Source of the DNA: a virus
Virus record (IMG/VR): IMGVR_UViG_3300030333_003244
Location: 1-22,200 of that record
Direction: 5' to 3' (one strand)
DNA length: 22,200 nt
Shown here: in pieces, positions 2,918-20,317 of the stretch
How positions within the stretch are numbered: the stretch's first letter is position 1
How the letters are laid out: every line of letters starts with the position of its first letter
Notes under the pieces: model-generated
Told to the model about the DNA's origin: nothing
Seen by the model: only the letters and a program-made list of their open reading frames with translations
Database searches by the model: none
Position numbers and translations under genes: made by a program

Positions 2918-3926
2918 TATTACGCAAGACTTTACAAATCTATTTAAGGGCTTTCCTAACGCTTTCGGAACTAACGAAGGCGGATGTAAATGGGAAAAAC
3001 CACAGTGGGAAGATCACCTATTTGGTACTCGTGAAGACGACATGATAGGTATTTACCCGATGGTTTACGACCCATACTGCAAGCTAGACATGCAAGGTCC
3101 AGAAGCTTACAACTCTGAGCGCAAATACACAGAAATGCAGCCAGATATGTGGCATTGCATTTGGGGTGCTATAGACATAGACGAAGGTGACGACTCGCTA
3201 GACTACGCTTTTAATGCCCAGACAATACTCAGGGCATTAGACATACCTAGCTGGGTTGAGCTTTCACGGTCTAAAGGATGCCACGTGTGGGTATTTTGCG
3301 AAGAATGGGTTACTGCCAAGCTGATACGTAAAGTATTAAAGGGAGTAATGCAACTAGGCGAAATACCTTATGACGCCGTGTATCCAAAACAGGATTCACT
3401 TGACGGACCAGTTGGCAACTACATGAGATTGCCTTACGGTTGTTTGCGACCTGAAGGTAGACAGATGATGATTAATCACACAGGGGAAGCCTACGACATT
3501 AACTCATTTGTCTTTACGGCAACTGACCGTAAAGCAAGCAAGGTAGCGTTAGAAGCAGCTTCACATATATATAAAGAACCCAAAGCTGACCTACCTCCAC
3601 CACGTGAATACTCCAAAGAGCCATTAATGACAATGGACGGTTCTAAATTACGTGGCGCAGCCCGAAGAATGTATGATGACGGACCAGTTGAATATTTCCT
3701 CACAGGACAAGGCGCAGGTCGTGGACGACACGGTTTCCTTCACAGGTTTGCAAGAGCAATGTGGGAGTCAAAGTATAATCGTAGTGATATAGTATCATGG
3801 ACAACAGACTTAGACTCTCGTCTTGGACTATGGTTTCAAGAGGGACCGAAATTTTCGGGGAGGCGTGATGGGCAAAAACAAATCCAAAGAATCGTTGATG
3901 ACGCAGGTTCAAGAGCCACACATTGA
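2910..3926 (+). CDS. Archaeo-eukaryotic-type (AEP) DNA primase
   Basis: This enzyme is predicted to make primers for phage DNA synthesis. The catalytic domain shows the AEP pattern: the metal-binding DID at 89-91; SRSKGCH at 119-125, matching the SxxxGxH nucleotide-binding motif; YPKQ at 158-161; and YMRLPYG at 171-177. A second part (about 240-338) has a helical, Arg-rich segment (GRGRHGFLHRFARA...) resembling primase C-terminal domains. At 338 aa it is a stand-alone primase, not the primase-polymerase fusion seen in some plasmids. The SD-like AGGGAG (2894-2899) lies 10 bases upstream of the ATG. The helicase is directly upstream with an 8-base overlap, so the two probably form the phage primosome. 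Whether it also has polymerase activity, as some AEPs do, cannot be told. Confidence 0.85.
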   Translation: MSNITQDFTNLFKGFPNAFGTNEGGCKWEKPQWEDHLFGTREDDMIGIYPMVYDPYCKLDMQGPEAYNSERKYTEMQPDMWHCIWGAIDIDEGDDSLDYAFNAQTILRALDIPSWVELSRSKGCHVWVFCEEWVTAKLIRKVLKGVMQLGEIPYDAVYPKQDSLDGPVGNYMRLPYGCLRPEGRQMMINHTGEAYDINSFVFTATDRKASKVALEAASHIYKEPKADLPPPREYSKEPLMTMDGSKLRGAARRMYDDGPVEYFLTGQGAGRGRHGFLHRFARAMWESKYNRSDIVSWTTDLDSRLGLWFQEGPKFSGRRDGQKQIQRIVDDAGSRATH

Positions 3927-4257
3927 GTTCATTGTAGAGGGACGACCCAAACCAAAGGGTCGCCCTCGCATGACTCGTAGAGGTAGAGTATATACACCTG
4001 CAGAAACGATAGAAGCTGAAGAGCTATACGCAGAGACAGTCAAAGACAAATACGAGCCAATTGACGGTCCTGTTAGCGTTGTGCTTACATTCAGCAAAGA
4101 GAACACATACGTTCACATCTCCTCCGTAAAGGAATGGAAATCTCCTTTACGTGGAGATCTGGACAATTACATTAAACTGGCTCTTGACGGCATACAACGT
4201 GCAGGGCTTATCGCTAACGATAAACAAGTCGTACACATAGATGCAATAAAGGTATAA
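3868..4257 (+). CDS. rusA: RusA-type Holliday-junction resolvase
   Basis: This is a predicted dimeric metal-dependent endonuclease that cuts four-way DNA junctions and helps resolve branched phage DNA before packaging. The N-terminal beta strand and basic loop (GRPKPKGRPRMTRRGR, 25-40) are typical. The catalytic region GDLDNYIKLALDG carries D97, D99, N100, K103 and D107, and D118 follows in ANDKQV; these are the expected acidic and lysine positions. At 129 aa it is close to E. coli RusA (120 aa). I chose the ATG at 3868 because GGGGAGG (3857-3863) precedes it by 4 bases; an upstream ATG at 3823 has no such site. The gene overlaps the primase 3' end by 59 bases in another frame. Confidence 0.9.
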   Translation: MGKNKSKESLMTQVQEPHIEFIVEGRPKPKGRPRMTRRGRVYTPAETIEAEELYAETVKDKYEPIDGPVSVVLTFSKENTYVHISSVKEWKSPLRGDLDNYIKLALDGIQRAGLIANDKQVVHIDAIKV

Positions 4258-4259
4258 CT

Positions 4260-4697
4260 ATGAGCTTTAAAGATAGACCATTTGAAACACGGTTCAAAGC
4301 TATGGGTGACATAGCAGAAACTGCGTTTGAAGAAAGATACGGAGCAAACTTTGTGAGGTTTGGTCTAAATAGACCACCTCTCAAAATGAGCGCTCTTCCA
4401 CCAGTAATAAGATACACACCTGATTATCTAACCTCTAACGCCTTCGTTGAGGTACAGGGACTAGGTGGAGATCAAATGTTCAAATTAAAACTAGACAAAC
4501 TTGAAGCATTAAGTTTCTGGAACAATATACATCCAGTACTTTTATACGTGTACGATTCCCACAAAGATAGGGATAACACCCTTGATTGGAAAACATTAAC
4601 AAGTTTGTGTCAAGAAGCAAAAATAGATACATTTCCAGAAGGAAAAAAGTACTATGCGGTCCCTGCTACCCTAATATGGGTAAATGGGGAAACGTGA
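4260..4697 (+). CDS. Small PD-(D/E)XK-like nuclease
   Basis: This is probably a small restriction-endonuclease-fold nuclease of 145 aa. The pattern is an early helix with E20 (GDIAETAFEERYG), then TPDYL with D55, a short strand with E64-V65-Q66 (FVEVQGLG), and a Lys-rich helix (FKLKLDKLEAL, 74-84). That matches the E...PD...ExK core, with Gln at the last position instead of Lys; known active members of the superfamily tolerate this change or move the Lys to the next helix. It starts 2 bases after the resolvase stop, with a modest AAAGG site (4248-4252), so it is probably cotranslated. A role in junction or end processing is plausible. Assignment is from motif pattern only. Confidence 0.65.
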   Translation: MSFKDRPFETRFKAMGDIAETAFEERYGANFVRFGLNRPPLKMSALPPVIRYTPDYLTSNAFVEVQGLGGDQMFKLKLDKLEALSFWNNIHPVLLYVYDSHKDRDNTLDWKTLTSLCQEAKIDTFPEGKKYYAVPATLIWVNGET

Positions 4698-5061
4698 CTT
4701 CATACTTGATCCAATAGAAGCATCTTGGATATTTGATAAAGCATACAGCAAACAAAAACATAAAGTAGCAACAGCTATTGAAGCGTTAATGCTTGCTGAA
4801 CCCCTTCAAGACCCTCAAGTGTCTTTAGAAGAACAACATCAGCTACGAGAAATCCTCGTTGGCGCCTTAGATGAGTTAGAGCCTATTGAGCTTTGGATAA
4901 TAAATGCGTTACTGTTTGAAAAGTTGAGTCTGAGAGAAGTTCAGCATATACTTTCCATTCCCAAAACGACTTTAGCTCGGAAACGAGACAAAATACTCCT
5001 CAAGCTACGCAAGAAGATTGAGGAAATACCCGAAGTACAGGAGTACTTAAATGGAGAATGA
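4684..5061 (+). CDS. Sigma-region-4-like helix-turn-helix protein
   Basis: A 125-aa protein whose C-terminal half looks like sigma factor region 4 or a LuxR/ArpU-type helix-turn-helix. The segment from about 64 to 110 (ELEPIELWII... then EKLSLREVQHILSIPKTTLARK) has the spacing of a DNA-reading helix pair, followed by a very basic helix (RDKILLKLRKK). The first 60 residues are helical and lack an obvious region 2, so it is not a full sigma factor. The gene overlaps the previous one by 14 bases and the next by 11. Its position at the end of the early operon suggests a phage transcription regulator, for example an early-to-late switch. DNA binding is well supported; its target is unknown. Confidence 0.7.
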   Translation: MGKRDFILDPIEASWIFDKAYSKQKHKVATAIEALMLAEPLQDPQVSLEEQHQLREILVGALDELEPIELWIINALLFEKLSLREVQHILSIPKTTLARKRDKILLKLRKKIEEIPEVQEYLNGE

Positions 5062-5629
5062 ACCAAACTTAAAACCAACCACATGGGAAACAGCAGCATG
5101 TTTAATGGCTTACAGAATAGATGACGCCAGAGAACAAGGACTGCAACACCCCGAAGTAGAACACGGATTTCTAGGTTTACTTACAACCATGAGAAACGAA
5201 TACGATTCCTTCTGCTACAAGGCATACGGCGTCATAGAAGAAGACCTAGACGCTCAAATAGTAGCAAATTGGTTTACAGCATTTGCAACACTAGCTTTAG
5301 ACGCAGGAGAATCACACGAAGATATACACGTCACATCAGCAATAGACATAGTGCCTTTCATAGCCATGAAACAACACGACTACGGACACATGAATATACA
5401 AAGATTTGGGCTAGACGGAATCCTAGTTAGACTGCACGACAAATTAGCACGTTTAGAGAATTTGGAAACCAAACATTATGACGCATCAACTGATGCTCTT
5501 TGCGAAGCAAAAGAAGACACAATAGTAGACATAATCGGCTACAGCATAATTGCGTGCATGTACGCTTATGGTATGTGGATGCTTCCGCTTAGCCCAATGC
5601 CTGAGGATTGGGAAACGGAAGATCTCTAA
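5051..5629 (+). CDS. DUF1599/Nmad1 nucleotide modification-associated protein
   Basis: The C-terminal half (about 105-175) has the DUF1599 (nucleotide modification-associated domain 1) pattern. It contains KQHDYGHMN with K107, D110 and Y111; FGLDGILVRLHDKLARLENL (119-138); and a second acidic motif E155-D156-T157...D160 followed by a hydrophobic helix (IIGYSIIACMYAYG). The family is all-helical and has been linked by comparative genomics to phage base-modification systems; a link to nucleotide-pyrophosphatase-like activity is possible but unproven. The first 100 residues are an unfamiliar extension. AGGAG (5039-5043) lies 7 bases before the ATG. It is the last gene of the plus-strand block and its stop overlaps the stop of the opposing holin-like gene. 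No partner modification enzyme is visible here. Confidence 0.75.
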   Translation: MENEPNLKPTTWETAACLMAYRIDDAREQGLQHPEVEHGFLGLLTTMRNEYDSFCYKAYGVIEEDLDAQIVANWFTAFATLALDAGESHEDIHVTSAIDIVPFIAMKQHDYGHMNIQRFGLDGILVRLHDKLARLENLETKHYDASTDALCEAKEDTIVDIIGYSIIACMYAYGMWMLPLSPMPEDWETEDL

Positions 5630-5793
5630 AGCTCTTTATTAATAGCTCTAGCTACAGGGTTCTTAAAAAGGCAACCACCAATAAACGCTATAGCAGCGTC
5701 TCCACCGATGGTTCCAACTGCTGCAAGTACTACAGCAGCGCAAACACCTACAATTGTAAGTATTTCGCCCTTTAATTCACTTATGCTGTCCAT
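5626..5793 (-). CDS. Holin-like small membrane protein, 55 aa
   Basis: A short ORF encoding 55 residues. A short N terminus (MDSISELKGE) precedes a long hydrophobic stretch (11-30, ILTIVGVCAAVVLAAVGTIG), a GD turn, a second weaker hydrophobic stretch (33-43) and a basic tail with K44, R49 and K53. The ATG at 5793 has GGAGA 5 bases upstream, and the first 13 bases overlap the end of the endolysin gene. A small membrane protein translated directly after an amidase gene is the classic setting for a holin, which permeabilises the inner membrane so the endolysin can reach the wall. Length and position fit; no specific holin family is recognised. It also covers the otherwise empty stretch between the two convergent gene blocks. 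Confidence 0.65.
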   Translation of the reverse strand: MDSISELKGEILTIVGVCAAVVLAAVGTIGGDAAIAFIGGCLFKNPVARAINKEL

Positions 5794-6524
5794 AAATATC
5801 TCCATGTCACTGGTCCGATAACCCCATCATTTACAATAGGATACTGTTTTTGAAAGCGCAATACCGCTTTCCGTGTGTTTCTTCCGTACACACCATCAAC
5901 TACAAGGTTAACAGGTATACGAGAATTTAACTGCTTTTGAGCCATTTGTACGTATTTGCCTCTAGATCCACGCTTTAAGGGTTTGCGTGCCAACGAACGA
6001 CCAATATCTAAAATATATTGATTAACAGCACGGAAATCTATAGTGCTTGGATTAACAGCAGGCGCATCCATGCCTGATTTAATCCAAGAAGCTAAACCAT
6101 TTGCAGGGCAATATGTGGCTGAAAAATCACGGTGACACTTAACCCAAAGTTGTTGCCCATATTTTTTGCGCACGCCTGCTACGGCTTTAATAAAGCCTTT
6201 CTTAGCCTCATCAGTTAACTGATCCCCAGAACCAATGTAAGCGATAGAAATGCTTCTCCAATTCCACCCTCTAGTGGCTGCTCCTTGACGCCAGCCACGA
6301 CCTTCAAAAATCTCTCCATTCTCTCCAACCAAAAAATTGTACCCAATTGATCTCCACCCTAAAGTCTTAGTGTGGTAACGATCATGGGCTTTTACACGCT
6401 CGGCAGGATTTTTTGAAGCGCCAGTAGTGTGATGCACAATAATGCCAACAGGTGTAACACGAAACGGATAAAGTCTCTTTCCCGAATCAATCGCTCCCCA
6501 TTCTTTACGAGTTGTATATTCCAT
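5781..6524 (-). CDS. Endolysin: N-acetylmuramoyl-L-alanine amidase with peptidoglycan-binding domain
   Basis: This zinc enzyme is predicted to cut the bond between MurNAc and L-alanine in peptidoglycan and release progeny at lysis. The amidase_2/PGRP-type domain spans about 1-150. Zinc ligands are H31 (VGIIVHHTTG), H131 (CHRDF) and C139 (TYCPAN), spaced as in T7 lysozyme; Y62 (IGYNFLV) and T137 are the probable catalytic neighbours. Residues 182-247 form a PG_binding_1 domain (RGSRGKYVQMAQKQLN... VDGVYGRNTRKAVLRFQ). There is no signal peptide, so export would need a holin, and a holin-like gene follows with a 13-base overlap. AAGGA lies 8 bases upstream of the ATG. The gene follows the giant virion gene after 20 bases, so it is probably on the same late transcript. 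Confidence 0.92.
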   Translation of the reverse strand: MEYTTRKEWGAIDSGKRLYPFRVTPVGIIVHHTTGASKNPAERVKAHDRYHTKTLGWRSIGYNFLVGENGEIFEGRGWRQGAATRGWNWRSISIAYIGSGDQLTDEAKKGFIKAVAGVRKKYGQQLWVKCHRDFSATYCPANGLASWIKSGMDAPAVNPSTIDFRAVNQYILDIGRSLARKPLKRGSRGKYVQMAQKQLNSRIPVNLVVDGVYGRNTRKAVLRFQKQYPIVNDGVIGPVTWRYLWTA

Positions 6525-6544
6525 ACCTATTATCCTTTTTGTCC

Positions 6545-9500
6545 CTAAGAGTACAACTCAAGCAGTTTGTTAATACGGTTCTGCTTTGCACTCGTTTCCC
6601 TAGTTTCCCATCCTAGCGCTTTAAAAGCCTGTTCTTGTTCATAGGGTGTAACTGTTCTCAAACCAACACCAGCAAACCAACTCAAAAACGTACTTAAACG
6701 CCTCTGTGTATAACGTTCTTCCTCAGGGAACAATCTACGGTAATCAGAAAAAACAGGTAAAAACTGGCTATATGCGTGCAAAACGTTATCAGCCATAAAC
6801 CATTCCCCACCATGTTTTTCAGCTAAACCTAACGCACCCATAGCATCCATCATCCCAATATTTAAAGTAGGGATTTGAAGCCTTAAAGCTTTAGGAACAT
6901 ATTCCATGCGTTTGTCCCCCTGAAAACTATAACCTTTCCAAATGTTGCGATGCAACACCCCTTCAATAGGCGCTTTAATTAAAGGAGTGACCATAGAACC
7001 AGTTTGAGACAGAACAGCGCCAAGAGCGCCTTTAATTCCACCTTCTTGAAGACCGTAAGTTGGTCCGTCTACCCATTCTTGCAAAGAACGCATAGGCAAA
7101 TCAGGCATAAAATACGTAGGTTGTCCGCCAATATCAAACCATTCAGGCAACATAATGCCACCTTGCCTTAACATCCAAGTAGGAACAGCTATTCCCTCCT
7201 CTAAAATACGATCACTTGCATCTAGCTCATTCATTATTTTAAAGTACGTGTTAAATTTCGCTGGTTGTCTAAAGAACTCAGAGAACGTAAGCGGAATAGC
7301 TCTACGTGCCCACGTGTAGAAAGGAATTAATCTTTTAATCTTTTTCTCCCTAGTGGACAAATCAGCGTAATCAAAATGCCATTTAACAATAGAATCCCAA
7401 GCATCATCAACGGTTCCACCTTTGCGCATAATGCTAAACCCATTAGCGCCACGTAGCATAGTTTCAACGCCAACGTTCATATTTCTAAAACCACTTAACA
7501 CAAAGTTTCCAGAATTGAACGGATTAACTTTACCGAAGTTAATCGTTCTACCACCAATACTTACAGTCTGAGAAAACTCTGTAGCAGTTTGAGCGCCACC
7601 CAAAGCACCACCATTTACCAATTCACGCACCCACTCTATGTGCTCTTGAGGAACTTTCCCTAACTTCTTTTCTAACTTAGCTACAATTTTAGCCTCTTCT
7701 TCCAATTGCTTAGAAGCACCAGCTCCAGACAAACGGAAAGTGCGATTAGATAAAAGCTGATTTTCTTGTTTTACATAGAAATACGCTCTAGCAAAATCAG
7801 TGTAATCACTTGGAGAAACATTAGCTAAGAAATTCATCCAAGCTCCACCATAAAAGTTACGTGCCATAAAGCCCATCTTAAGAATCATGTAACCTTTCAT
7901 AAGGTTATGCACCCTGTCATAATGTTGGACCCAGCCCTTGTTCGTTAAAGCAGCAGAAATAGCTTCTTCACTTTCCTGCATAGCCATAGCTAACGAACCA
8001 GAACTCATACCCCCACCAGTACCAATAGGTTGCTGACCAGAAACATGTTTCCTAACAACGACCTCTCCAAGATTTTTCATCTTGGCAGGAAGCTTGTCAT
8101 CTATAGGAGATTCCAAAAGTTGATTGTATTCTTTAGCGCCTAACTCTGCATGGGCAATTATTTCATCAATCAAATCAGCATCTTTTTGAGCTAAATACCT
8201 AATGGATAAATCAATATCATTAATCAACTCTTCAGGAGGTGAATGACCAACAAGCAATTGAGAAATAGTTTCAAATTCTTTTTTGGCTTTAGGAATAGTA
8301 ACTAAAGGTTCACCCATTCCATCTGTAGGTACCATCACAGAATCGTTAGCGATTGCAAAACTTAAACGCAATTGCTCCAAAGAAGACATAGCTTCTTCCA
8401 ATAACAGACTTCTTGTATTTAACCAATCTTCAACATCTTTCAATTGCGCTATGCGCTCAGGTATCTCACTAGCTCTAGACTTAGCATCTTCTAAAGTTTG
8501 ACGTGCTCTAATATGAGCAGCTTGAGCTGTTTCTAATTGCGCTTTGCTAGCTTCAACAGCAGCTTCCTGCTGAGCAATGCTACGCTGAACACCATTACGA
8601 TCAGGTCGGAAAAGATCTTCCCTGTTTCTTATCAATTCGTCCCTGTCAGGATTCTTGTAAAAGTTTTCAACTTCTTGAAGTTTTGAAGCTAAACCGTCAT
8701 TGTAAGTCAAAGCATTACGCAAACGAGCATCAAGATAATCATAAGCCGTATCTATATTAGGATTAACTCTCCACCTCATCCATTGCTCAAACCATTCCTC
8801 AGGGAATATTTCTCGCTCAATGACAGAAGCTAAAGCATCTACAACCTCTCCCCAATCGCTAGTTAAAGGTCTGCGAGGATCTAAACCTTCGCCCTTCCAA
8901 CCAACAGACTCTAAAAAGGTAATCGCTTTTTCGTTTTGAGGGGTTTTGTAATTAATACCTATGTCTTCAAGGTAAGCTAAGAACAGATCGTTTCTTCCCA
9001 TGCGAGAGTGAAAGCTTTCTAAAGCTTTTCTAATGGGTAAAGAAATTGCGCTTTCTAATCTTTCAGCAGGATCTACAAGCCTGCCTGAAAGACTAATATC
9101 ATCCAAATTGTCAGCAAAAGCATCTGCAGGAATGATCCATGCTTCACCATTCCAATAAGCACCAAATTCCCTATTAGACGACCATGAAGTTTCAGCCCTT
9201 AAAGCTTTCAACTCATCGTCTCTTACTCGCACAGCTATTTCATCAGCTAATTTTTGGGCTTCATCAAACAACACTCCCTGCAAATCTTCAGAAACATCCA
9301 AATTATTATCATCTATGTACTTAAGCCAGTTACCTAAATAATCATCTACCCATTTAGATCCCATGTAATGTTTAAGCCAATCAACCTCTTCGTTGGTTGT
9401 TCCTATACCTTGCCAAATGCGAAGAATACGGTTCCTTACTTCCATAGCTGCATCAGCTATGGCGGACTCTACTTCCATTTTTGCGTTTTTAACATCAGTT

Positions 9501-12500
9501 AATTGGACTTCAAAAGCGTTTTCTTTCATATGCACAGCAGTTTTGTCAATTACGTGCAGATCAACTATCCAATCATCATCATATGTTCCAACGCTTCTTT
9601 GTATTTCATTACTAATACCTACTTGAACTGATTCTCCAAATGCTAAACTTTCTTCCCCTTTTGACGGACTCAAAACATCTGGGCGAGGTTCCAAAGGATA
9701 TGTAGTGCCTTCACCAAAAGGAACTTGTTGAGGTTGTTCGCCTTCAAAAATTGACAGTCCTTGAGTTTCTTCATTGTAAGGGAAAGGTTGTTGTTCTCTC
9801 ATTGCAGAAAGTTGATCCCATTGTTGAGAATCTTGGAAAGCATTAAACACCCTAGCGCTCCCTGAACGTGTAGGCGTTGCAACAGCAATATACCCATCAC
9901 CTATTAAAGAAGCTTTCCAATTTTCCACTAATCTAGGCATTAGCATATCAACTGGTCTTGCAGCATTTATCATGTCACGTGCTTCAACACGTCCAAGTAA
10001 CTGATTAGCATAAATGTATGACAACATTTTTGCATCAATATTATCTGAAGACAGTTGCGGATTAGCAGGATCAGTTTTCATCATGTACTCAGCTAAGTCA
10101 TCTTCCAAAGAAGCAACTTCACCTATAAAATTATCAGAAGGCGACCTCATAGCAGTTCTGTATTTCAAATCACGCCAAGCAACAAATTCAAAAATTTCTC
10201 TAAAGCCAAGTTTTTGCTTTAAAGGAAACTTCTGAATAACACTATTAGCAGAAAGCAATGACCTTGCAGTAATTAAAGCATAAATAGCGTTAGCTTTGCT
10301 CATGCGATCATGGAGAACATGAGCTATTTGGGCTTCATTATCACTCATAAAAAATTTATACAAAGGATTATGCGGACTGTTTTCTGCACTAACTAAAGGA
10401 TTACGAACCCAATGACCGTAACCAGCTTCAGGAACCCAAGTCATCACACCATCAAGATCATTTGCACGAATATTACGTACTATTTCTTGAACAGTGCTTT
10501 CTATTTCTTTTTTGCTTAAAGGTTTTTTAAGTCCAAACATTTGCCGTTCACTAGCATCCATTGTCAAAAAGTCTCTAAGTAAATATTCAATCATTTCGTC
10601 AATATCGCTTACAGTTTGCCTGTCTAGAATATCTAAAGACCTATCACCTTTAGGGATAACTTCTCTTGGGCTTTGCCTGTAATTACGCACACCTTGCAAT
10701 GCTCTAGGTTGCGTAGAATACTGGGGTCCATAACCAGCAATGTTTTCTAACTTTTCCCAGAAGAAAGGATCGTCCATGTCAATCTGATGCAAATTATCAG
10801 GGTCATATAATCTTTTGAGAGCAAGCCTCATTAACCTATCTTCAGCAGCCCATTGGAAGAAATTACTGCCATCTTCTCCTACATCTCCCCCATGTATGCG
10901 ACCTGCAGCTAAACCCCTGTCAGCTATTTCTTCACCCACATTAGCTTGCGAAGGGCTAGCGCCATAAGTTTTTATTTTACCTGCATTTACATCAAGTTCT
11001 AAATATTGCCAAACGTTTCTTACTCCAGCACCATCAAGACCAAACTGGCTACTTACGTCCATAAAAGCGTAAGGAGCTAAAGTAAACATGCTAGAAGAAT
11101 CAGAATATAAGCTTGGAGTTTCTAAAGCAGGCTGTATTGAAGATTCAGGGTTTATTATAGTTACGCCCTCAAAATCCATTGGGCTAGATCCTTGACGAGC
11201 AACATCTATCATAAAACCTTGACCAGCAGGAGTTTGAACATAATGGAACCTATTAAATTGACGCATAATAGGAACCAATTTCCTAACATCAGTTTTATCT
11301 ACAAAAGCTTCAGGAATACCTGCTTTGATTGCAGCTTCCCTAATCATTTCATCAGTGCCTAAAGCAATAGGTCGCCCACGCAAAGCTTCAGACATTGCAT
11401 TCAATCTCACATCCATAAAATAAGACAACTTAGCTATCAAAGCTTCATCTGCAGTATTTCCCAAAATGTGTTCAATTAATCGCCTAAAGCCACCTTGCTC
11501 AAGCCTAAACTTATCTAACCTATCAACAGCATTAGATAAAGCTTGAACATATTCTGGATTCGGATACCCAAAATTATCAGTACCTAAACGAATCGTGTCA
11601 GCACCAGAACCTTCAAAAAGATGCCGTTCCATCACAGTATCTTCAGTAATTCCTTCTGGAAGATCTTTGGGTCGTTTAGTGGGTTTAACGTCAGGACGTT
11701 TACCAGTAGGACGATCAAATTCAGGACGCTTAGGCAATCCTTCAATTGAATCAGCACCCTGATTCAATTGGTTAATACGAGCTATTTCATCATCTATTAA
11801 ATGAGGATAATCGCTAACAACATCGTTAGGGTTAACAAATAAACCATCCCGATCTCGTATGCGTTTAACAACAGTGCCAATCGCTTGATCCCTAATTTGG
11901 TCTTCTGTTAAAGCTTCACCAGATTCATAAAGTTTTCTTTGTTTAGCAAGCTCAGGGTTAGCCTTGTCCCACTCAACAATAAGTTCATCGTAATCTTCCC
12001 ACGCACGAACTCTTTCATCATAATTTGAAGAAGCCTGCCATTTTCTAATAACTTCTTCTTCCCACCTATTAGCAGCTTCCCCCATTCCAGAAGTAACTGG
12101 CGTTGAAATTGGCGCATCTGGGTCACCTAAACCAACCCTTGTTCTTCCATTAAAATTGCCTATTTGGTAGCCAAGAAAGAAGTCTAAATCCCCTACGTCA
12201 ACAACATCCCCAAGACCATCAAAGAAAATACCGCCTAAATCAACACGGATAAGTCGTTCGCCTAAGTCTCCCATTACTCTTGGACGACCTATAGGATTAT
12301 AGGGAGTTCCTATAAGTAGATCTATTGCTGTAGCAAGATCAACGTATTCGCTACGTTCATATTGCGGTCTATCTACTAATGGAAGCTGTCTATCAGTAGC
12401 ACGAGTCAATTCAGAAGGCATACGCCGTCCACTAGGATCATCAGCCATTTTCCTCACAGAAGACAAAGACAAAAGTTGCCCATTAGAATCAGTAGGTAAA

Positions 12501-15500
12501 GTTAGCCACAAATAAGAACCATTTGAGTTAGCCCATTTCTTTACTTTAGGAACCTGAACACCAGCAATTTCATACATTTTGTAAGCAAAAAACATTTTGT
12601 CCAAATCCAAAGGATTATCAAATTTTTTAACTAAATAATATTCAGTTTGTTCATTCCCATATTTATCCGTAAAAGTTCTTTGATAATAGCCTTCAGTTGC
12701 ATCCCAATTTTCAGGATTCAATATTGAAGACTCTGGAAGAGCAGATTCAGGTCCAATCCCATTTACCAAAGCAGGATCAATCTTTTCCATAGAACGCACA
12801 ACTTCTTCAGTTATTTCAAAAGAATCATCAAAACCAGCTCTAAAGACAGCTTGAGACATGCCTCTTTCTTTAAAGCGTTCCATGTAAGCAATTGCACCAG
12901 CCATATTAACCGTTTCCCCAGTTGGCAAACGCACATGACCTAAACTATCAATAAAAGAGTTTATGACATTACCGACTAAAGGATCGTCAGACATTTCCCT
13001 AAGGGTTTCGTCAATTCTCTGCTGAATAAATTTTCTATACCCATCAACCATTTGCCCAAGATCTTCTAAATTATCTACTTGAGCCAAAGGACGATGCCCT
13101 CGCACACCAAAATATAATTTCGCAGCTTTAATAACTTCCGAATTTGTAAGCGGATCTAAATCAACCATTGTGCGATCAGGGTTATTGTAATAACCGTCAA
13201 ACACTCTGCGTTGAGCATCCTGCAATGCTTCAACGCTTGGCACAGGCATAAGATCAAAAATGCTATCTACTTCTGTTTCTTGAGCACTTGGATGAGATTT
13301 TTTCGGATTAAATTCTCTTTCCCACGCTGACAAGCGACTAATTCCAGATTCTATTTCAGCATCCAAAGCATCAGAAAGAACATAGAATTGCCCACCAGAA
13401 GTTCTTGTAGCTTCACGTTCTATGTTGTCTAAAACAAAACGGCTATTAAGCAACCACTCACCTATACTGTCGTTCAAAAGCCAATCATGTATACCATCAA
13501 ACAATCTACGTATTTGTGTAACACTTAGACTGTTTCCATCAGGCAAAGTGATAACGTAATTTTCTCTTTCTAAAGTGTTTAAAATTTCATTAGGTCCAAT
13601 TCTTTCAACGTTTTCTGGACCCGAAAAACGACTATCTGTAGAATTAAGATTACTCCACTCAGAAAAATTAATCTCACGATCTCTAGCAGTTGAAACCGCA
13701 ATTTCAGCTTGTTCCATAGCACGCCGAGCTTGCTCAGCTTCACTAAGCGTAGAAGTAGAAGGATCAAGTTTAATTTCTTGCAACTGATCAAAATAATGTC
13801 GCATAACCAAAGGATCAATTTCATCACCGTTAGTGTTCATCGTTGGTTTAGCGTAAGCAAAAGATTGATCTTCAGCTAAATAATAAAGATCACTAGAACG
13901 CCTAGCATCACCATAATGGCGACTAGCGTTTTTAGGCTGGTAACCCAATTCTGTAGAAATTCTATCTAAAGCCCTGAAAAACTCTTCATCTGTTAAATCC
14001 AGATTATGGATTTCGTTAACTTTAGCTTTTAGGTTATACAAAACATGCGAATCAATAGGCACTAAAAAACCATTATTAGATTCAAAGACGAAAGGATCGT
14101 CAGGCAAATCCACATCTTTTGGATAAACAACTTCTGTCCCCAACTGGGCATTAGGCGTTAAGAAAATATCGTCAGTTTGATTAGGCGCAAACAGCCTAAT
14201 CAAAAGACCTCTAGCTTCTGGACCCAAAGGCTCCAGCAAAGACACAATTGTTTCATCAATTTCAGCAAACGTAACAAACATTCCACGTTCTTGTTGAGAC
14301 AACTGAAAAGAAATATGCCCTAAAGCCTCAGGGGTTTGAGCAATACTTAAAAGAGAATCGTTATGGTATATGCGCAATCTGTCATCCACAGCGTTAATTA
14401 ACGCCTCATAATACTCTCTAGCTAATTCTGTGCCTTTCTTGGTTCCATTAATAGTGTCAAAAAACCCTGTTTCAAACAATTCATCTAAAATCATTCTTAC
14501 AGACAACCCTGTCGTTACACCTTCCCAAACTCTTGCATAAAAAGAATCAGCTATATCTTCTGGATTTTCCCCAGCACCAATGATTATCTTTCGCATTTCT
14601 TCTTGCAATTCTTGAAGCTCTTTATTACTTTCAACAGCCCTTTTGAAACTTTCCATTTCTTTTAGCGTAATTTCGTTTCGTTTAAACTTCTCCCATTCAT
14701 CTAACGCCAAATTGTTTAACAGCTCTTGTTTTCTTGCTTCTATTTCTTCAAGCCTTGCAATGTCATCGCTTAATTTAGCTTCTTTTGCTTCTTGAAGCTT
14801 TGCGCTTCTTTCAACTCGTGTTTCCAATTCTTCAATTTGAGATTGAAGAACCGAAGCTTCCTTTTCCAATTCATCTATTTCTTTAACAGTAAGCTTTCTA
14901 GCTTCCTCACTTTGCTCGTAAGCGTCATGCAACCGTTTAGTTAATCTACGTTGCATAAATTCAAGACTTCTATAACGTTGCAACAAGCTCTTGCTTGTTT
15001 CAATGTCTTTCATTCTGGGCAACTCTAAAGAGGTCACCCACCCTTTAGCCTGAGAAATAACTCCCTTCTTCTGTAAATCATTAAAAGACCACGTAGTAGC
15101 AGTTTGACGAGACAAACCTTCTATGTAATCAGTAATAAATTTCAAAGGATCACGTTCAAAGAAATTCCCACTTAAGCCATGATGTTCCATAATTTCACTT
15201 ATTTGCTCAGCTAAAGAACCATACTTTTTGCCTGTCTCAGGATCAATAAAATTAGGTTCATGCAACTGAACATCGCTAAACAAATCAGTTATGCCTTCAG
15301 AGTCCCTAAATTCGTTTTTAAACTTTTCTAAACGTGATTCAGGCGCATTAGTTAAATCAACTTGACGATGAGTTTTTTTCATCCATTCAAGGAACCTTTT
15401 GTTAAACTCAATTTTGTCTACATAACCACGCTGAAGCGTAGGCGCACCAGTTGAAAATCTTTTAAACTTTCTATGTTGTCCTTTTATCTTTCCGCTTTTT

Positions 15501-17719
15501 GCAACAGCACGCAACTCATCACGCAATTCCTTATTGAGCTGATGAGGGATGTAATTTTCTCTTCTAGAAACAACTTGCCCACCAGCCACACGCTCCGCTT
15601 CATCAGCAAAACCAACAAATAGCCGTTTCATATCTGCAGCTAAATCCACTCCTTCATAAAGAGACGGATTAACTTCTCTAGCAAGCGCCATAATCTCATT
15701 AAGCATACCTGCAGCTTCTTCGCTGCCTTCAGCAGCGTTAGTTACTAAAATCCTAAACGCTTCTTGATAACTGCTTCCATATATAGAATCTTCGCCAACA
15801 GTTATTCCATATTTAGTAAGAACTGACTGTGTTTGCCCAGAAAGTTCATTGGAACTATTGCGCAATAAATCAATAAAAGGTTTAGCCAACCTTCTTAAAC
15901 GAACCCCAGTTTGTAACTTGACAGCGTTAGCACGCCCAACAGTTGTAACCAGTTCTTTAGCTAAATGAACTTTAAATGGATTAGTAGAATTAGCTATATC
16001 CCATTTAGCCTGACGCAAATCACCGCTCATATCTAAATCATTTAACGCCCTAGCAACTCTAGACTTTCTCCAACCTTGACGCACATGCTGTGAAAAAAAC
16101 TGTGGAAAACTCATAAGTTTTCCCCAAGTCCTATCACTCACATTAATTCCCCTAGCATTAGGAACAATTCGTTTAGGCTGAAATTTAGTAGCTACTGCAG
16201 GTTTAGGTTTCTTAACAAATTGTCCAGCAGCAGCATCCCATGTATGCGTTGAAAGCCTATTACCTATTCTTTGCGCCATACTATAAACGCTGTTTGCGAC
16301 TACACCTTCACCCAAAAGATTAATTGGGCGAGTTTTGCCACGAACAACATTAAATAAAGTTACAGGCGATAAAGGTTGCCTGTACTTTAAGCCCCATTGA
16401 GGGGTTAAACCACTATTAACAAAAGGAGTAAACTTTGTAACCTTGTCGTTGTATCTAGCTGCTTCAGCAGCAAATTCTACTTCATCAACAAATTTGCCAT
16501 TGTAAAGCATCAAATTATTTTTTTCAGCCCATTTAGCCATTATGTTTGTTTCAGCAATGCTTAACGAACTAGGACCAAATCTTTCAGCTTTAATAACAAC
16601 ATCTATAACATCAACTACTTCATCCACTAAAGGAGCAGCTACCTTAGGGTCAATGTTATACAGCAAAGAATCGCCTTGAGAAAAACTAGGCGAATGCTTA
16701 AACTTTCCATTTGTTTCAAACCATTCCAAAACCTTAGCTTTAATCTGGGCTTTACTGACGTCACCAGCGTCAGAAGCCCATTGAATGACACTATCAACAA
16801 AGCCCTCTCGTGTTTCGTTAGTAACACTTGACTTTAAAGTGGCTTTAGTAATGTCGTCCATTGCTCCGACAACTTCTTCTAACCCTTCGTCAGCGTATTT
16901 CAATCCTTTTTCTATAGACTCATCAAGCATGTTGTCTACAGACCTGCGAATCACCTGTCTAGCAGCACCTATGCCACTAGCAGCTCTATTAATGTCGTTT
17001 ACAAGACCAACACCGCCAAAATAGTTTAAAGGATCAAGAGTAAAGTCCATTGGAATAGAAATAAGTTGCGAATAACGCACATTCCAACCTAGTTTAGGTA
17101 TTTCAAATTCGCCTTGAAGCCAATCCTCGTTTACAAAAATATCATCAAAAAATAAATGCCCACCGTACACAGGAACTAAATCTTTAGCGTTATCCCACGC
17201 ATCTTCCCACACGTCAGACCATTTGCCGTCTCCTATGCCAACGGTTCCCAAAGCTGCTTGACCCAAATTAATCATAGCTTGATATTGCAAAACTTTTAAT
17301 TCAAGGGGTATTTCCAAAACATTAACAGCAGCACCAAAAGCACTCTTAAGTCCCTTGCCTATAAAATTAATTGCAGCAGGATTCTTAGGAGTTGGTTTAG
17401 CAATTTCTTTTAAATTCGCATGAAGATTTTCATACTTTTCAGAAGGGAAATGCCCATAAACATTCCATTCAGGGCGAGGAGCAAACTTAGCGTCTTGCTG
17501 CATAAACGTCTTCATAACAGACGGATAATTTAAATTCTCAACCTTATATGATTGTTTAACTAATGGATCTTCTATTACACGTTCAAGAATGCTTTTATTA
17601 ACTTCGTTTTTAGACTTAGTGTTTATTGTCTGAAGGGCAGCAGTAGCTTTAGCTAATCTAGCTGTGCGTTCTTGTCTTTCCCTTGTTCTTTGGGCAAGCA
17701 ACTCTTGGTATGAAGCCAT
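6545..17719 (-). CDS. Giant phage protein, 3,724 aa; likely internal virion/ejection protein
   Basis: An uninterrupted 11.2-kb frame with AGAGAG 5 bases before its ATG, 8 bases after the 660-aa gene. Visible regions: a basic helix at 1-35; a hydrophobic-amphipathic stretch about 115-160; a DFTLDPLNYFGG signature (225-236); ENYIPH (721-726), a motif I recall from other large phage proteins; a heptad-rich coiled coil about 905-1045; a HipA/PI3K-like kinase-fold segment about 1680-1850; a Lys/Arg/Pro linker about 1990-2020; a second coiled coil about 3025-3125; and a C-terminal module with RN (3287-3288), HFDYADLS (3448-3455) and PFYTW (3466-3470). I see no signal peptide, protease or lytic transglycosylase motif. 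Position between helical structural genes and the lysin suggests an internal core or ejection protein like an oversized T7 gp16. A polyvalent protein injected with the DNA is the alternative. The ORF is certain; the function is inferred. Confidence 0.8.
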   Translation of the reverse strand: MASYQELLAQRTRERQERTARLAKATAALQTINTKSKNEVNKSILERVIEDPLVKQSYKVENLNYPSVMKTFMQQDAKFAPRPEWNVYGHFPSEKYENLHANLKEIAKPTPKNPAAINFIGKGLKSAFGAAVNVLEIPLELKVLQYQAMINLGQAALGTVGIGDGKWSDVWEDAWDNAKDLVPVYGGHLFFDDIFVNEDWLQGEFEIPKLGWNVRYSQLISIPMDFTLDPLNYFGGVGLVNDINRAASGIGAARQVIRRSVDNMLDESIEKGLKYADEGLEEVVGAMDDITKATLKSSVTNETREGFVDSVIQWASDAGDVSKAQIKAKVLEWFETNGKFKHSPSFSQGDSLLYNIDPKVAAPLVDEVVDVIDVVIKAERFGPSSLSIAETNIMAKWAEKNNLMLYNGKFVDEVEFAAEAARYNDKVTKFTPFVNSGLTPQWGLKYRQPLSPVTLFNVVRGKTRPINLLGEGVVANSVYSMAQRIGNRLSTHTWDAAAGQFVKKPKPAVATKFQPKRIVPNARGINVSDRTWGKLMSFPQFFSQHVRQGWRKSRVARALNDLDMSGDLRQAKWDIANSTNPFKVHLAKELVTTVGRANAVKLQTGVRLRRLAKPFIDLLRNSSNELSGQTQSVLTKYGITVGEDSIYGSSYQEAFRILVTNAAEGSEEAAGMLNEIMALAREVNPSLYEGVDLAADMKRLFVGFADEAERVAGGQVVSRRENYIPHQLNKELRDELRAVAKSGKIKGQHRKFKRFSTGAPTLQRGYVDKIEFNKRFLEWMKKTHRQVDLTNAPESRLEKFKNEFRDSEGITDLFSDVQLHEPNFIDPETGKKYGSLAEQISEIMEHHGLSGNFFERDPLKFITDYIEGLSRQTATTWSFNDLQKKGVISQAKGWVTSLELPRMKDIETSKSLLQRYRSLEFMQRRLTKRLHDAYEQSEEARKLTVKEIDELEKEASVLQSQIEELETRVERSAKLQEAKEAKLSDDIARLEEIEARKQELLNNLALDEWEKFKRNEITLKEMESFKRAVESNKELQELQEEMRKIIIGAGENPEDIADSFYARVWEGVTTGLSVRMILDELFETGFFDTINGTKKGTELAREYYEALINAVDDRLRIYHNDSLLSIAQTPEALGHISFQLSQQERGMFVTFAEIDETIVSLLEPLGPEARGLLIRLFAPNQTDDIFLTPNAQLGTEVVYPKDVDLPDDPFVFESNNGFLVPIDSHVLYNLKAKVNEIHNLDLTDEEFFRALDRISTELGYQPKNASRHYGDARRSSDLYYLAEDQSFAYAKPTMNTNGDEIDPLVMRHYFDQLQEIKLDPSTSTLSEAEQARRAMEQAEIAVSTARDREINFSEWSNLNSTDSRFSGPENVERIGPNEILNTLERENYVITLPDGNSLSVTQIRRLFDGIHDWLLNDSIGEWLLNSRFVLDNIEREATRTSGGQFYVLSDALDAEIESGISRLSAWEREFNPKKSHPSAQETEVDSIFDLMPVPSVEALQDAQRRVFDGYYNNPDRTMVDLDPLTNSEVIKAAKLYFGVRGHRPLAQVDNLEDLGQMVDGYRKFIQQRIDETLREMSDDPLVGNVINSFIDSLGHVRLPTGETVNMAGAIAYMERFKERGMSQAVFRAGFDDSFEITEEVVRSMEKIDPALVNGIGPESALPESSILNPENWDATEGYYQRTFTDKYGNEQTEYYLVKKFDNPLDLDKMFFAYKMYEIAGVQVPKVKKWANSNGSYLWLTLPTDSNGQLLSLSSVRKMADDPSGRRMPSELTRATDRQLPLVDRPQYERSEYVDLATAIDLLIGTPYNPIGRPRVMGDLGERLIRVDLGGIFFDGLGDVVDVGDLDFFLGYQIGNFNGRTRVGLGDPDAPISTPVTSGMGEAANRWEEEVIRKWQASSNYDERVRAWEDYDELIVEWDKANPELAKQRKLYESGEALTEDQIRDQAIGTVVKRIRDRDGLFVNPNDVVSDYPHLIDDEIARINQLNQGADSIEGLPKRPEFDRPTGKRPDVKPTKRPKDLPEGITEDTVMERHLFEGSGADTIRLGTDNFGYPNPEYVQALSNAVDRLDKFRLEQGGFRRLIEHILGNTADEALIAKLSYFMDVRLNAMSEALRGRPIALGTDEMIREAAIKAGIPEAFVDKTDVRKLVPIMRQFNRFHYVQTPAGQGFMIDVARQGSSPMDFEGVTIINPESSIQPALETPSLYSDSSSMFTLAPYAFMDVSSQFGLDGAGVRNVWQYLELDVNAGKIKTYGASPSQANVGEEIADRGLAAGRIHGGDVGEDGSNFFQWAAEDRLMRLALKRLYDPDNLHQIDMDDPFFWEKLENIAGYGPQYSTQPRALQGVRNYRQSPREVIPKGDRSLDILDRQTVSDIDEMIEYLLRDFLTMDASERQMFGLKKPLSKKEIESTVQEIVRNIRANDLDGVMTWVPEAGYGHWVRNPLVSAENSPHNPLYKFFMSDNEAQIAHVLHDRMSKANAIYALITARSLLSANSVIQKFPLKQKLGFREIFEFVAWRDLKYRTAMRSPSDNFIGEVASLEDDLAEYMMKTDPANPQLSSDNIDAKMLSYIYANQLLGRVEARDMINAARPVDMLMPRLVENWKASLIGDGYIAVATPTRSGSARVFNAFQDSQQWDQLSAMREQQPFPYNEETQGLSIFEGEQPQQVPFGEGTTYPLEPRPDVLSPSKGEESLAFGESVQVGISNEIQRSVGTYDDDWIVDLHVIDKTAVHMKENAFEVQLTDVKNAKMEVESAIADAAMEVRNRILRIWQGIGTTNEEVDWLKHYMGSKWVDDYLGNWLKYIDDNNLDVSEDLQGVLFDEAQKLADEIAVRVRDDELKALRAETSWSSNREFGAYWNGEAWIIPADAFADNLDDISLSGRLVDPAERLESAISLPIRKALESFHSRMGRNDLFLAYLEDIGINYKTPQNEKAITFLESVGWKGEGLDPRRPLTSDWGEVVDALASVIEREIFPEEWFEQWMRWRVNPNIDTAYDYLDARLRNALTYNDGLASKLQEVENFYKNPDRDELIRNREDLFRPDRNGVQRSIAQQEAAVEASKAQLETAQAAHIRARQTLEDAKSRASEIPERIAQLKDVEDWLNTRSLLLEEAMSSLEQLRLSFAIANDSVMVPTDGMGEPLVTIPKAKKEFETISQLLVGHSPPEELINDIDLSIRYLAQKDADLIDEIIAHAELGAKEYNQLLESPIDDKLPAKMKNLGEVVVRKHVSGQQPIGTGGGMSSGSLAMAMQESEEAISAALTNKGWVQHYDRVHNLMKGYMILKMGFMARNFYGGAWMNFLANVSPSDYTDFARAYFYVKQENQLLSNRTFRLSGAGASKQLEEEAKIVAKLEKKLGKVPQEHIEWVRELVNGGALGGAQTATEFSQTVSIGGRTINFGKVNPFNSGNFVLSGFRNMNVGVETMLRGANGFSIMRKGGTVDDAWDSIVKWHFDYADLSTREKKIKRLIPFYTWARRAIPLTFSEFFRQPAKFNTYFKIMNELDASDRILEEGIAVPTWMLRQGGIMLPEWFDIGGQPTYFMPDLPMRSLQEWVDGPTYGLQEGGIKGALGAVLSQTGSMVTPLIKAPIEGVLHRNIWKGYSFQGDKRMEYVPKALRLQIPTLNIGMMDAMGALGLAEKHGGEWFMADNVLHAYSQFLPVFSDYRRLFPEEERYTQRRLSTFLSWFAGVGLRTVTPYEQEQAFKALGWETRETSAKQNRINKLLELYS
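12168..12682 (-). other. HipA/PI3K-like kinase-fold segment inside the giant protein
   Basis: Giant-protein residues about 1680-1850. The first half has YYLVKKF (1694-1700) followed by an acidic helix and a KMYEIAGVQVP motif (G1720, P1724). This resembles the ATP-lobe pattern 'vKf...E..a..LY...Gv.vP' of HipA-like and related kinase-fold proteins. The second half has ATAIDLLIG then ERLIRVDLGGIFF (RVDLGG at 1825-1830, D1827), resembling the 'RID.GG' metal-binding strand. Between them, where active members carry a catalytic Asp and Asn, this sequence reads TPYNPIGRPRVMGD, so these residues appear lost or shifted. A divergent, possibly inactive kinase fold is the best reading. It rests on motif memory, not on an alignment. 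Confidence 0.45.
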
Positions 17720-17727
17720 ACATCTCT

Positions 17728-19710
17728 CTAACTATTCATTCCAGCCAAAATTTGTGCTACAAGATCTGAATCCGCTTGAAACAATGGATTTGATTCAGCC
17801 ATAGGACCATATATTGGACTAGTAGTACCGCTTTGGAAAAACATGGGTTTTCCATCAACAATTTGTACTTGACCGTAATTACTTAATGCTACCAAAGCTT
17901 GATCAAGCGTATTTCCTGTGCCTCCTGTAATAGGAACGTATTGACCAGTTGAATAGCCAGTAGGACTTCCAGAAATGTTATCTACATATTGAGCAATCAT
18001 ATCGTTAACACTATACGCATCAGTAAAGTTTCCTGAGTCGTCAGTCCAACCTTGTTCAGACATCCACGTAGCCATTTCTTCGTTTGCTGTATCTAATAAT
18101 TTTTGCGTAGCTTGCTGGTTGCTTTCAATTTCAGCAGCTCCAGATGCACCAAAACCTAATGTGTAATCATCAGAAGTGTCTTCCATGAATTTAACTTTTG
18201 CTGTTAGGTCATCTATTTCTTTTTGTTTTGTTTTCCAAGTTTGATAATCATCAACTTGGGAAACAGAAACTTCACCATCAAAATGTTTAACAATACCTTC
18301 AGGAGAATTAAGCGCTATTTGAGAATCAGCAAACGCTTGCTCCGCAGCAGCAACACGTTTTCCAATGTTAGACCACCCAATAGTTTCATATTCAGCCCTT
18401 AACGTAGCTTCATCTTCACCTAACATTCTTGCAGCAGAAGCAATCATAATATCTTTATTCTGCTCAGTTTCTAAAGCCGATAAAGCATCAGCTTCAGCAT
18501 TCGCAGCTTCAATAGCTAATTCAGCATCAGCCCTAGCATATGCGCCAGTCGGATCATAATGACGTTCCATCATTTGACCAACAATAGCTGGACCCATAGC
18601 TTGCAACTCTGCTACAGAAACACCCAAAATTGCAGACTGGCGCTCCAACTGTGCTCGCTCGTCTTCTTTAGCTTTTTGCTGAGCAGCCCAAGCAGCAGCA
18701 CGTCTTTGACGTTCTTTTTCTTCTTGAATATATGTTTGAGCACGTTGAGCTTCAATACCCTGCAACGCTTGAGCCAAAGCCATATCTTGCTGATAACCCA
18801 TTTGAGACAAACGCTGGGCTTCCGCCAAAACTTGTTGGCGCTCACCAGCATTTAACTCACGTAAAGCCTGAGACGTAGATTGTTTAATTTGGTTTTCAAT
18901 ACGGAACTTTTCATCGCCCAAAGCCATTTGCGCTTGCGCAACCAACTTCGCAGGCATAGCAAGACGCTCTTGCGAAGCCATGCGAGAAACAGCCTGCAAC
19001 CTATCCATAGCAGCAGCAGACGATTCAGCAGTATTAGCACCCATAGCCCTAGTAAGTTCAGCAACAGCTTCAAACTCACTACTAACCTGATCACCTAACT
19101 CAGCACGAGAAGCAGCTTGTCTATCTTTTTGTTCTGCAAGCATTTTTTTCTGACGATCAGCGCCTCTTTCTGCTACAGCAGCTAATTCAGCTTGACCTTG
19201 AAGATCCAAAGCTCCAAGTTCTGCAGCTAATTCCGCACCAATATCAGTTATTTGCCCAGTTCTTCTATCAAATGCCTGTTCTAGGAAAGCCAACTGTTCA
19301 TCAGATATATCTTGTATATCAGCACGACCCTCTTCGGCTAATTGCCTAATCTGTTCAGTAAAATCTTCTATTTCAACTTCGCCAAATAAATCTCTCGTAG
19401 ATTGCGCTAAATTGTCGTAAATATCAGCATAAGCACTTTTACCTGACCTCAAATAAGGGTTAGTTGCTTTTCCGCTATTACCAAAATTAAAGTCTATTGG
19501 CGCTTTTTGATTTGCCCTTAAATGAGGTGATCCCCTGTTTATGCTTCCATCAGGGTTTTGAAACATGGGATTAACTGGTTGGTTATCTGGAAGCACTTGA
19601 TTGCCTCCGAATCCACCTATATTGCTCCAATCAATAGGATCTGACGGAGTGGGCTGACCACTCAAATTAACAAGATTAGCTAACATGTCTTCATCTAAAT
19701 AAGGTGCCAT
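17728..19710 (-). CDS. Ala/Gln-rich coiled-coil protein, 660 aa; probable internal virion protein
   Basis: No enzymatic motif is recognised. The N-terminal 80 residues are Gly/Pro/Asn-rich and flexible. Residues about 100-400 are almost all helical and coiled coil (long runs rich in Ala, Gln, Glu and Arg), and a second helical block covers about 405-520. The C-terminal 140 residues are Gly/Thr/Ser-rich with a probable beta character. The size and make-up resemble T7 gp15-type internal core proteins. The start overlaps the preceding stop as TAATG with AGGA 5 bases upstream, so the two proteins are likely made in a coupled way. The giant gene follows after 8 bases. A tape-measure or scaffold-like role is the alternative; the structural role is inferred from position and composition. 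Confidence 0.75.
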   Translation of the reverse strand: MAPYLDEDMLANLVNLSGQPTPSDPIDWSNIGGFGGNQVLPDNQPVNPMFQNPDGSINRGSPHLRANQKAPIDFNFGNSGKATNPYLRSGKSAYADIYDNLAQSTRDLFGEVEIEDFTEQIRQLAEEGRADIQDISDEQLAFLEQAFDRRTGQITDIGAELAAELGALDLQGQAELAAVAERGADRQKKMLAEQKDRQAASRAELGDQVSSEFEAVAELTRAMGANTAESSAAAMDRLQAVSRMASQERLAMPAKLVAQAQMALGDEKFRIENQIKQSTSQALRELNAGERQQVLAEAQRLSQMGYQQDMALAQALQGIEAQRAQTYIQEEKERQRRAAAWAAQQKAKEDERAQLERQSAILGVSVAELQAMGPAIVGQMMERHYDPTGAYARADAELAIEAANAEADALSALETEQNKDIMIASAARMLGEDEATLRAEYETIGWSNIGKRVAAAEQAFADSQIALNSPEGIVKHFDGEVSVSQVDDYQTWKTKQKEIDDLTAKVKFMEDTSDDYTLGFGASGAAEIESNQQATQKLLDTANEEMATWMSEQGWTDDSGNFTDAYSVNDMIAQYVDNISGSPTGYSTGQYVPITGGTGNTLDQALVALSNYGQVQIVDGKPMFFQSGTTSPIYGPMAESNPLFQADSDLVAQILAGMNS

Positions 19711-20120
19711 TAGCTTCCTAACCCTTGTAATGTTTGCGCAAGACCTATCCTTCTTAAAGCATTAGCTATAGCTTCGTCCATAGCGCCAGCAGAAAATTGT
19801 TCCTCTATCAAAGATCTTTGCCGATCTAACTGAGCTTGAGCTTCCATTATTTGCCCTTCAAGCCCCCAAGATTGCAGTTCTTTATCGCCAGCTAATCTTT
19901 CAGAAGCTTTTTTAGCAACACCAGAATCTATCATTCCACGCCGATTCATTTGTCCACGTTGTTGCGTGCCCAAATCTTTAAACTGCCTATCTAAATTAAA
20001 CCTAGATAAAGCACTTTGTCTTTCTAAAGATTCACGAGCCATAGTTATATCATTTAAGCCATAACCGTAAGTCGTGGTTCGTGTTCCTGCGTTATTAGTA
20101 GTGTTGTATGAAGAACTCAT
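19710..20120 (-). CDS. Helical phage structural protein, 136 aa
   Basis: A small, mostly helical protein rich in Gln, Arg and Ala with a Ser/Thr/Asn-rich flexible start (residues 1-20). A QQRGQMNRRGMIDSGVAKK segment (53-71) resembles an 'RG...SG' motif I recall in small virion proteins beside internal core or tail genes of podovirus-like phages. No membrane segment is clear. Its stop overlaps the start of the 660-aa gene by one base (TAATG). In size and order it would match T7 gp14, the smallest of the three ejection proteins. Family membership is not proven. Confidence 0.7.
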   Translation of the reverse strand: MSSSYNTTNNAGTRTTTYGYGLNDITMARESLERQSALSRFNLDRQFKDLGTQQRGQMNRRGMIDSGVAKKASERLAGDKELQSWGLEGQIMEAQAQLDRQRSLIEEQFSAGAMDEAIANALRRIGLAQTLQGLGS

Positions 20121-20134
20121 CTCATATTAATGTA

Positions 20135-20317
20135 TTAACTGTCCCGATTATCAGCAGTTTCTTCACCATTTAGAGCTTTTTCAATAGCTGCAATTTCAGC
20201 TTTTTTCATAGCTAAATCCCATTCAGCTTGACCTCTAGGGCTTAATTGCTTAAGCACATCCTCTAAAGTTACTGTATTTTCCTCTACTGGCTGTTCGTGT
20301 TCTTCTGGCATTGACAT
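20135..20317 (-). CDS. Small acidic hypothetical protein, 60 aa
   Basis: A 60-residue protein with an acidic, Glu-rich start (PEEHEQPVEEN) and one long amphipathic helix (about 18-51, VLKQLSPRGQAEWDLAMKKA and onward). The ATG at 20317 has a strong GGAGG 7 bases upstream, which supports a real gene even though its first 34 bases overlap the end of the tail-fibre gene. It could be a small chaperone, scaffold or adaptor for the neighbouring virion proteins. No family is recognised. Confidence 0.65.
   Translation of the reverse strand: MSMPEEHEQPVEENTVTLEDVLKQLSPRGQAEWDLAMKKAEIAAIEKALNGEETADNRDS

Follow-up and report, generated by a model that had tools for sequence, protein, structure and literature searches.

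A single open reading frame takes up 11,175 of the 22,200 bases of the stretch of viral DNA analysed here (the window), and the question it raises is what a phage does with a protein of 3,724 amino acids. The preliminary description had pictured the product as a string of separate domains which, if packed in the virion and injected, could carry several activities into the host. The window is a complete virus record of 22.2 kb and has no end repeats, which suggests that it is probably a fragment of a phage genome. In our view the phage is short-tailed and the giant is very probably the largest of its three ejection (internal virion) proteins, packed in the particle and injected. The features on which the discussion rests are collected in Table 1.

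Table 1. Coordinates of the giant gene, its parts and its minus-strand neighbours in the window
Feature	Position	Strand	Remarks
Amidase endolysin with peptidoglycan-binding domain	5781..6524	-	Downstream neighbour, conserved in the clade
Giant ORF, 3,724 aa, predicted large ejection protein, cysteine-free	6545..17719	-	ORF call, homologues, dN/dS, cysteine count
Conserved C-terminal module, aa 3160-3724	6548..8242	-	Contains KWHFDY and PFYTW
Variable middle, aa 1111-3160, predicted cargo region	8240..14389	-	Expansion relative to 970-1,880-aa homologues
Second conserved block of the middle, aa 2060-2628	9836..11542	-	No known family
Basic Pro-rich linker, aa 1996-2023	11651..11734	-	
Kinase-like domain with degenerate active site, aa about 1670-1850	12170..12712	-	Motif alignment with intact sisters
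Conserved N-terminal part, aa 100-1110	14390..17422	-	Aligns with G001 over 992 aa at 22% identity, E 5e-68
Cysteine-free 660-aa protein, rich in Ala, Gln and Glu	17728..19710	-	Middle ejection protein (predicted), positioned like T7 gp15 and N4 gp51
136-aa protein, no cysteine	19710..20120	-	Small ejection protein (predicted), positioned like N4 gp52
Tail fibre gene	20284-22197	-	Shufflon_N match (PF04917)

Integrity of the reading frame and its relatives

The frame opens with ATG and contains no internal stops, and GC skew and composition are even all along it. A search for relatives by tblastn against named phages found a 1,312-aa homologue in the Manatee Spring podovirus (MW202803; E 1e-11) and one of 1,783 aa in Cellulosimicrobium phage DS1. 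When the whole giant protein was used in a pattern scan of viral contigs there was no match, but alignments of its C-terminal part did succeed: a three-sequence alignment recovered 31 viral contigs, and a clade-specific one recovered 31 loci that partly overlap with them. With a mid-sized relative as the query, Arthrobacter phages Jasmine, Adat and Brad and Microbacterium phage Shocker were added. Electron microscopy shows Jasmine and the phages of cluster AV to be podoviruses (PMC5513430, PMC5794937). Several members of the group of large proteins from Jasmine, Shocker, DS1 and MW202803 are taken in by PHROG 36598.

The homologue search that the preliminary description had called for yielded seven other contigs with single-frame versions of 2,753-3,923 aa, and four contigs (G001, G002, G003 and G004) were read whole. 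G001 is 40,871 bp long with a 99-bp end repeat, and its 3,923-aa giant accounts for 29% of the genome. Its near twin G004 has 40,413 bp and a 123-bp end repeat; the 3,916-aa giant of this contig spans the ends and was joined across the repeat. The remaining single-frame giants have at least 3,812, 3,508, 3,167, 3,153 and 2,753 aa, and the wider homologue set covers 973-1,882 aa. For the giants of G001 and G004 the dN/dS ratio is 0.14 overall and 0.06-0.29 in the individual blocks when the pair is divided into 14 blocks of 280 codons. Purifying selection in every block indicates that the entire length is a working protein. Together with the single-frame homologues in other contigs, this confirms that the 11.2 kb form one intact frame.

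We note that identity between the window (positions 1928-17719) and G001 is very uneven. It is 92% for the helicase, 86% for the primase and 74% for the endolysin, 62% and 48% for the 136-aa and 660-aa partners of the giant, respectively, and 22-26% for the body of the giant itself.

Conserved ends, a variable middle and kinase-like modules

Conserved N- and C-terminal parts flank a fast-changing middle in the giant protein, which bears out the idea of a string of separate domains, and the sub-features originally named (coils, a kinase-like segment, a basic proline-rich linker and PFYTW) were all located in it. The N-terminal part contains the motif DFTLDPLNYF (positions 17018-17047), and Asp229 of the giant is invariant in an alignment of 26 proteins. 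Coil-like stretches lie at residues 901-1040 and 3061-3120. The middle of about 2,000 residues is absent from the shorter homologues. Sequence searches of Pfam, PHROG and the PDB with the whole giant or with the second conserved block of the middle recognized no enzyme, and a simple hydropathy profile of the giant showed no evident membrane helices of the N4 kind, giving one weak segment at residue 360.

The C-terminal 560 residues, including PFYTW at residues 3466-3470 (positions 7310-7324), are the best conserved, with about 34-45% identity within the clade and 17-33% beyond it. When the model of this module (mean pLDDT 74.5) was compared with BFVD using Foldseek, it matched proteins named 'large polyvalent protein associated domain' (E 1.7e-15 to 1e-2) with probability 1.0 and TM scores of up to 0.56 of the query, as expected of an LPD-type fold. 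Further matches of the model are proteins whose names refer to ART, zeta toxin, helicase or RelA/SpoT parts and, more weakly, Vibrio phage virion RNA polymerases (E 0.026 and 0.042). The PF18857 (LPD38) profile found no match in 35 members; a second LPD38 profile search was also silent, as were its controls. Fold searches of the PDB with the C-terminal model gave nothing above noise, from which newness of the fold does not follow.

The kinase layout is kept in three sister giants, those of L058 (YYVK, a helix with Glu, NWDVVG..DN and RVDQGG) and of G002 and G003 (YYVK, a helix with Glu, NLDAVG..DN and RLDNG). Their active-site residues (Lys, Glu, catalytic Asp, Asn and DxG) are all in place, which is not the case in the window protein. 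The catalytic loop is altered to GTPYNP in the window, to NWSVNG in both G001 and G004, to NWNVLG in L054 and to NWGVMG in L055. The model of the window segment is poor (pLDDT 47.6), and its top matches are mostly kinases, with E values of 0.06 or more and Z scores of 4.3 or less. The motifs and this poor model weakly suggest a kinase-type domain in the window, and the altered residues suggest that it is likely to be a pseudokinase. Kinase-domain scans of viral contigs found clade members only, and PDB sequence searches with kinase profiles gave only noise.

Domains similar to the intact versions occur in Mecenats66, a Morganella phage, and Touem01, a Pseudomonas phage, in each case within a protein with a C-terminal ADP-ribosyltransferase, and also in Verrucomicrobia, Chloroflexi and actinobacterial contigs. 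Kinases of polyvalent proteins are known from Verrucomicrobia and others (PMC5512222), and these domains may belong to the same family. G002 also carries Nudix, at a Pfam E value of 2.6e-4 that lies slightly over the cut-off, with the box REAYEETGL, and a stretch of G003 matches it. The proposal of several activities is therefore upheld only for the sisters, three with intact kinase motifs and two of these also with Nudix; for the window copy, with its degenerate kinase-like active site and no enzyme recognized, it is not. We note a probable Nudix domain after the kinase-like domain in the giant of L005 (residues about 1827-1930), kinase-like and Nudix domains in one protein of the Chloroflexi contig L080 and a NUDIX gene two genes past the kinase-ART gene in Mecenats66.

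A late cassette without cysteine

The giant gene comes third and last in a late cassette of three genes and is the largest of them. The order of small protein, middle protein, giant and lysis gene is recurrent and is placed at the end of the late genes. The small protein has about 136-155 aa in the clade and 238-244 aa in Jasmine and Shocker, and the window copy bears the conserved motif NRRGM(I/L/V)DSG. The middle protein ranges from 276 to 1,009 aa across the loci; PDB sequence searches with the 660-aa family returned only noise.

Genes for a major head protein, scaffold, portal and terminase and for an SU10-type adaptor (PF24175, E 5.5e-21) are present in the sister G001, and G004 encodes a 524-aa protein matching virion and internal-virion PHROGs. 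The assignment to short-tailed phages comes through relatives only, from the genes of G001 and the electron microscopy of Jasmine and its kin, the window itself being without these genes. The plus strand of the window is a replication block with a DnaB-type helicase, a protein that is 31% identical to an MW202803 protein annotated as a PD-(D/E)XK nuclease and a 144-aa, putatively RusA-like protein.

Several side observations concern these neighbouring genes. Next to the helicase, in the same plus-strand block, is an archaeo-eukaryotic-type primase (window positions 2910-3926) with a match to PF22548, the model for primases of TOTE conflict systems (E 2.5e-16); the window showed no noticeable DNA polymerase gene. 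The large terminase is encoded by two overlapping ORFs, an ATPase part of 295 aa and a nuclease part of 222 aa, in G001 (L035 6666-8215), G002, G003 and G004, and is a single 560-aa protein in MW202803. The tail fibre of the window is a mosaic, with 92% identity to the G004 fibre over 178 aa and poor alignability elsewhere.

The cysteine count is zero in all three cassette proteins of the window, compared with 0.96% in its other genes of at least 100 aa. Zero cysteine was likewise found in 41 giant homologues with 80,589 residues (0.85% in other ORFs of the same loci); these homologues are related and their counts are not independent, although some are only about 20% or less identical to the window protein. 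Further upstream partners are cysteine-free in 16 of 17 cases. The G001 cassette would be expected to contain 38.7 cysteines (binomial P 1e-17); all other residue types are present. Among the controls, gp50, gp51 and gp52 of N4, gp7, gp20 and gp16 of P22 and gp15 and gp16 of T7 have none. T7 gp14 and gp26 of Anabaena phage A-4L each contain one, so the cysteine rule has exceptions. Several cysteines are present in fibre, portal and terminase proteins of the three control phages; some of their scaffold, head and other proteins are also cysteine-free, as is the helicase, a short protein, and in short proteins such absence can arise by chance.

For N4-type virion RNA polymerases the lack of cysteine has been linked to cell entry (PMC2784036; also PMC4837373). 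Our literature search found the rule stated for these polymerases and no general statement of it for ejection proteins, and we treat cysteine absence as a shared trait found here, not as a published definition. It marks whole cassettes in P22, in N4 and in the present group, and most of the T7 cassette, and it is the strongest new evidence for an ejection role. It fits the idea that ejection proteins cross the tail and the envelope unfolded, and it gives a simple sequence test for such proteins.

Proposed ejection, its alternatives and comparison with known systems

Cassette position, cysteine exclusion, the short-tail genes and the C-terminal fold together lend strong, if inferential, support to the proposal that the giant is packed in the virion and injected. 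Beyond its encoding in an ejection-type cassette, we infer virion location, ejection, channel formation and the function of the middle by analogy, each step being modelled on N4, T7 and P22 (PMC12633501, PMC8954989). The giant would hold the place of gp16 in T7 and P22 and of gp50, the virion RNA polymerase, in N4. It would be packed in the phage head with its two partners and leave through the short tail with the DNA, either unfolded or as beads on a string. The smaller partners may go before or alongside it and begin the channel that crosses the envelope, and the two conserved ends of the giant may serve in packing and in forming or attaching to this channel. Inside the host the protein would refold, and the variable middle of about 2,000 residues would be the delivered cargo, which in some sisters may include a kinase-like domain whose motifs are intact and, in a pair of them, Nudix as well. 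No lytic transglycosylase, RNA polymerase or metallopeptidase was found in the giant.

That the giant is instead a tail protein which stays on the particle, whether fibre, tape measure or hub, is improbable. A match over 69 aa to PHROG 19395 ('tail fiber; host specificity'; E 1.9e-5) points that way, as does a short match around PFYTW to A-4L gp26, which shares the motif and is filed as a tail protein in PDB entry 9k3a; this match weakens with a broader profile (E 0.37). However, the window has a separate tail-fibre gene, the adaptor and nozzle-like genes are typical of short tails, for which no tape measure is expected, and the shared cassette and shared cysteine exclusion favour ejection. 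We note that A-4L gp26 (L085 16766-20110), itself annotated 'tail fiber; host specificity', is among the last late genes, and the annotation may be wrong.

Less probable still is a multi-enzyme that acts early or late within the cell and never enters the virion. The kinase and Nudix domains of the sisters would suit such a protein too, but the gene lies in a late operon, adjoins virion genes and is co-conserved with two small cysteine-free partners, and cysteine exclusion would have no reason in it. A frame joined from two or more genes by assembly fusion or read-through, for which the origin of the window as one metagenome contig is the only opening and no support was found, is rejected with near certainty by the seven contigs with single-frame homologues and the uniform purifying selection.

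The ejection reading has a wider form, which we regard as evenly balanced: that a gp16-type ejection protein has turned into a general carrier of injected cargo, with conserved ends for delivery on either side of an exchangeable middle of ~2,000 aa (kinase, Nudix or pseudokinase), and that a strict, cassette-wide ban on cysteine holds across unrelated short-tailed phages and is usable to recognize ejection proteins. What is new here is the family, the share of the genome that it takes up, the changing middle with both intact and degenerate kinase-like modules and the breadth of cysteine exclusion. Giant virion proteins as such are already known: the N4 virion RNA polymerase has 3,500 aa, and the 4,515-aa DarB-like gp69 of the Bcep22-like podovirus JC1 was found in particles by mass spectrometry (PMC9144972), which tempers the earlier remark that the gene is very long for any phage. 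The present group points to further phages besides N4 that would eject a protein of such size, as phages of roughly 40 kb devote up to 29% of the genome to one giant with no recognizable polymerase.

Like the window giant, the polyvalent phage proteins (Iyer et al. 2017) are very large and multi-domain, with a similar C-terminal fold and with kinase and Nudix modules that are paralleled in the sister giants; they differ in that PF18857 (LPD38) is unmatched and no ART, methylase or helicase domain was found in the window protein. T7 gp16 and P22 gp16 are each the third and largest ejection protein and cysteine-free, but at 1,318 and 609 aa they are far shorter than 3,724 aa, and the transglycosylase domain of T7 gp16 has no counterpart found in the giant. 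The order and sizes of N4 gp52 (150 aa), gp51 (644 aa) and gp50 match the window cassette, and gp50 is likewise cysteine-free and multi-domain with a separate C-terminal domain. No significant sequence similarity was found between gp50 and the giant; unlike gp50, the giant gave no Pfam or PHROG match to an RNA polymerase domain, and the HExxH metallopeptidase motif of N4-type virion RNA polymerases occurs in none of nine giants.

The large proteins of Jasmine (gp29, 1,803 aa), Shocker (gp37), DS1 and MW202803 are shorter than the giant (1,312-1,803 versus 3,724 aa) and lack the long middle, and their functions, like its own, are predicted. The exchangeable middle makes the question of what phages inject besides DNA testable in the cultured phages Jasmine and Shocker. 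All four proteins share with the giant a homologous C-terminal module, freedom from cysteine and the same cassette ahead of a lysis gene.
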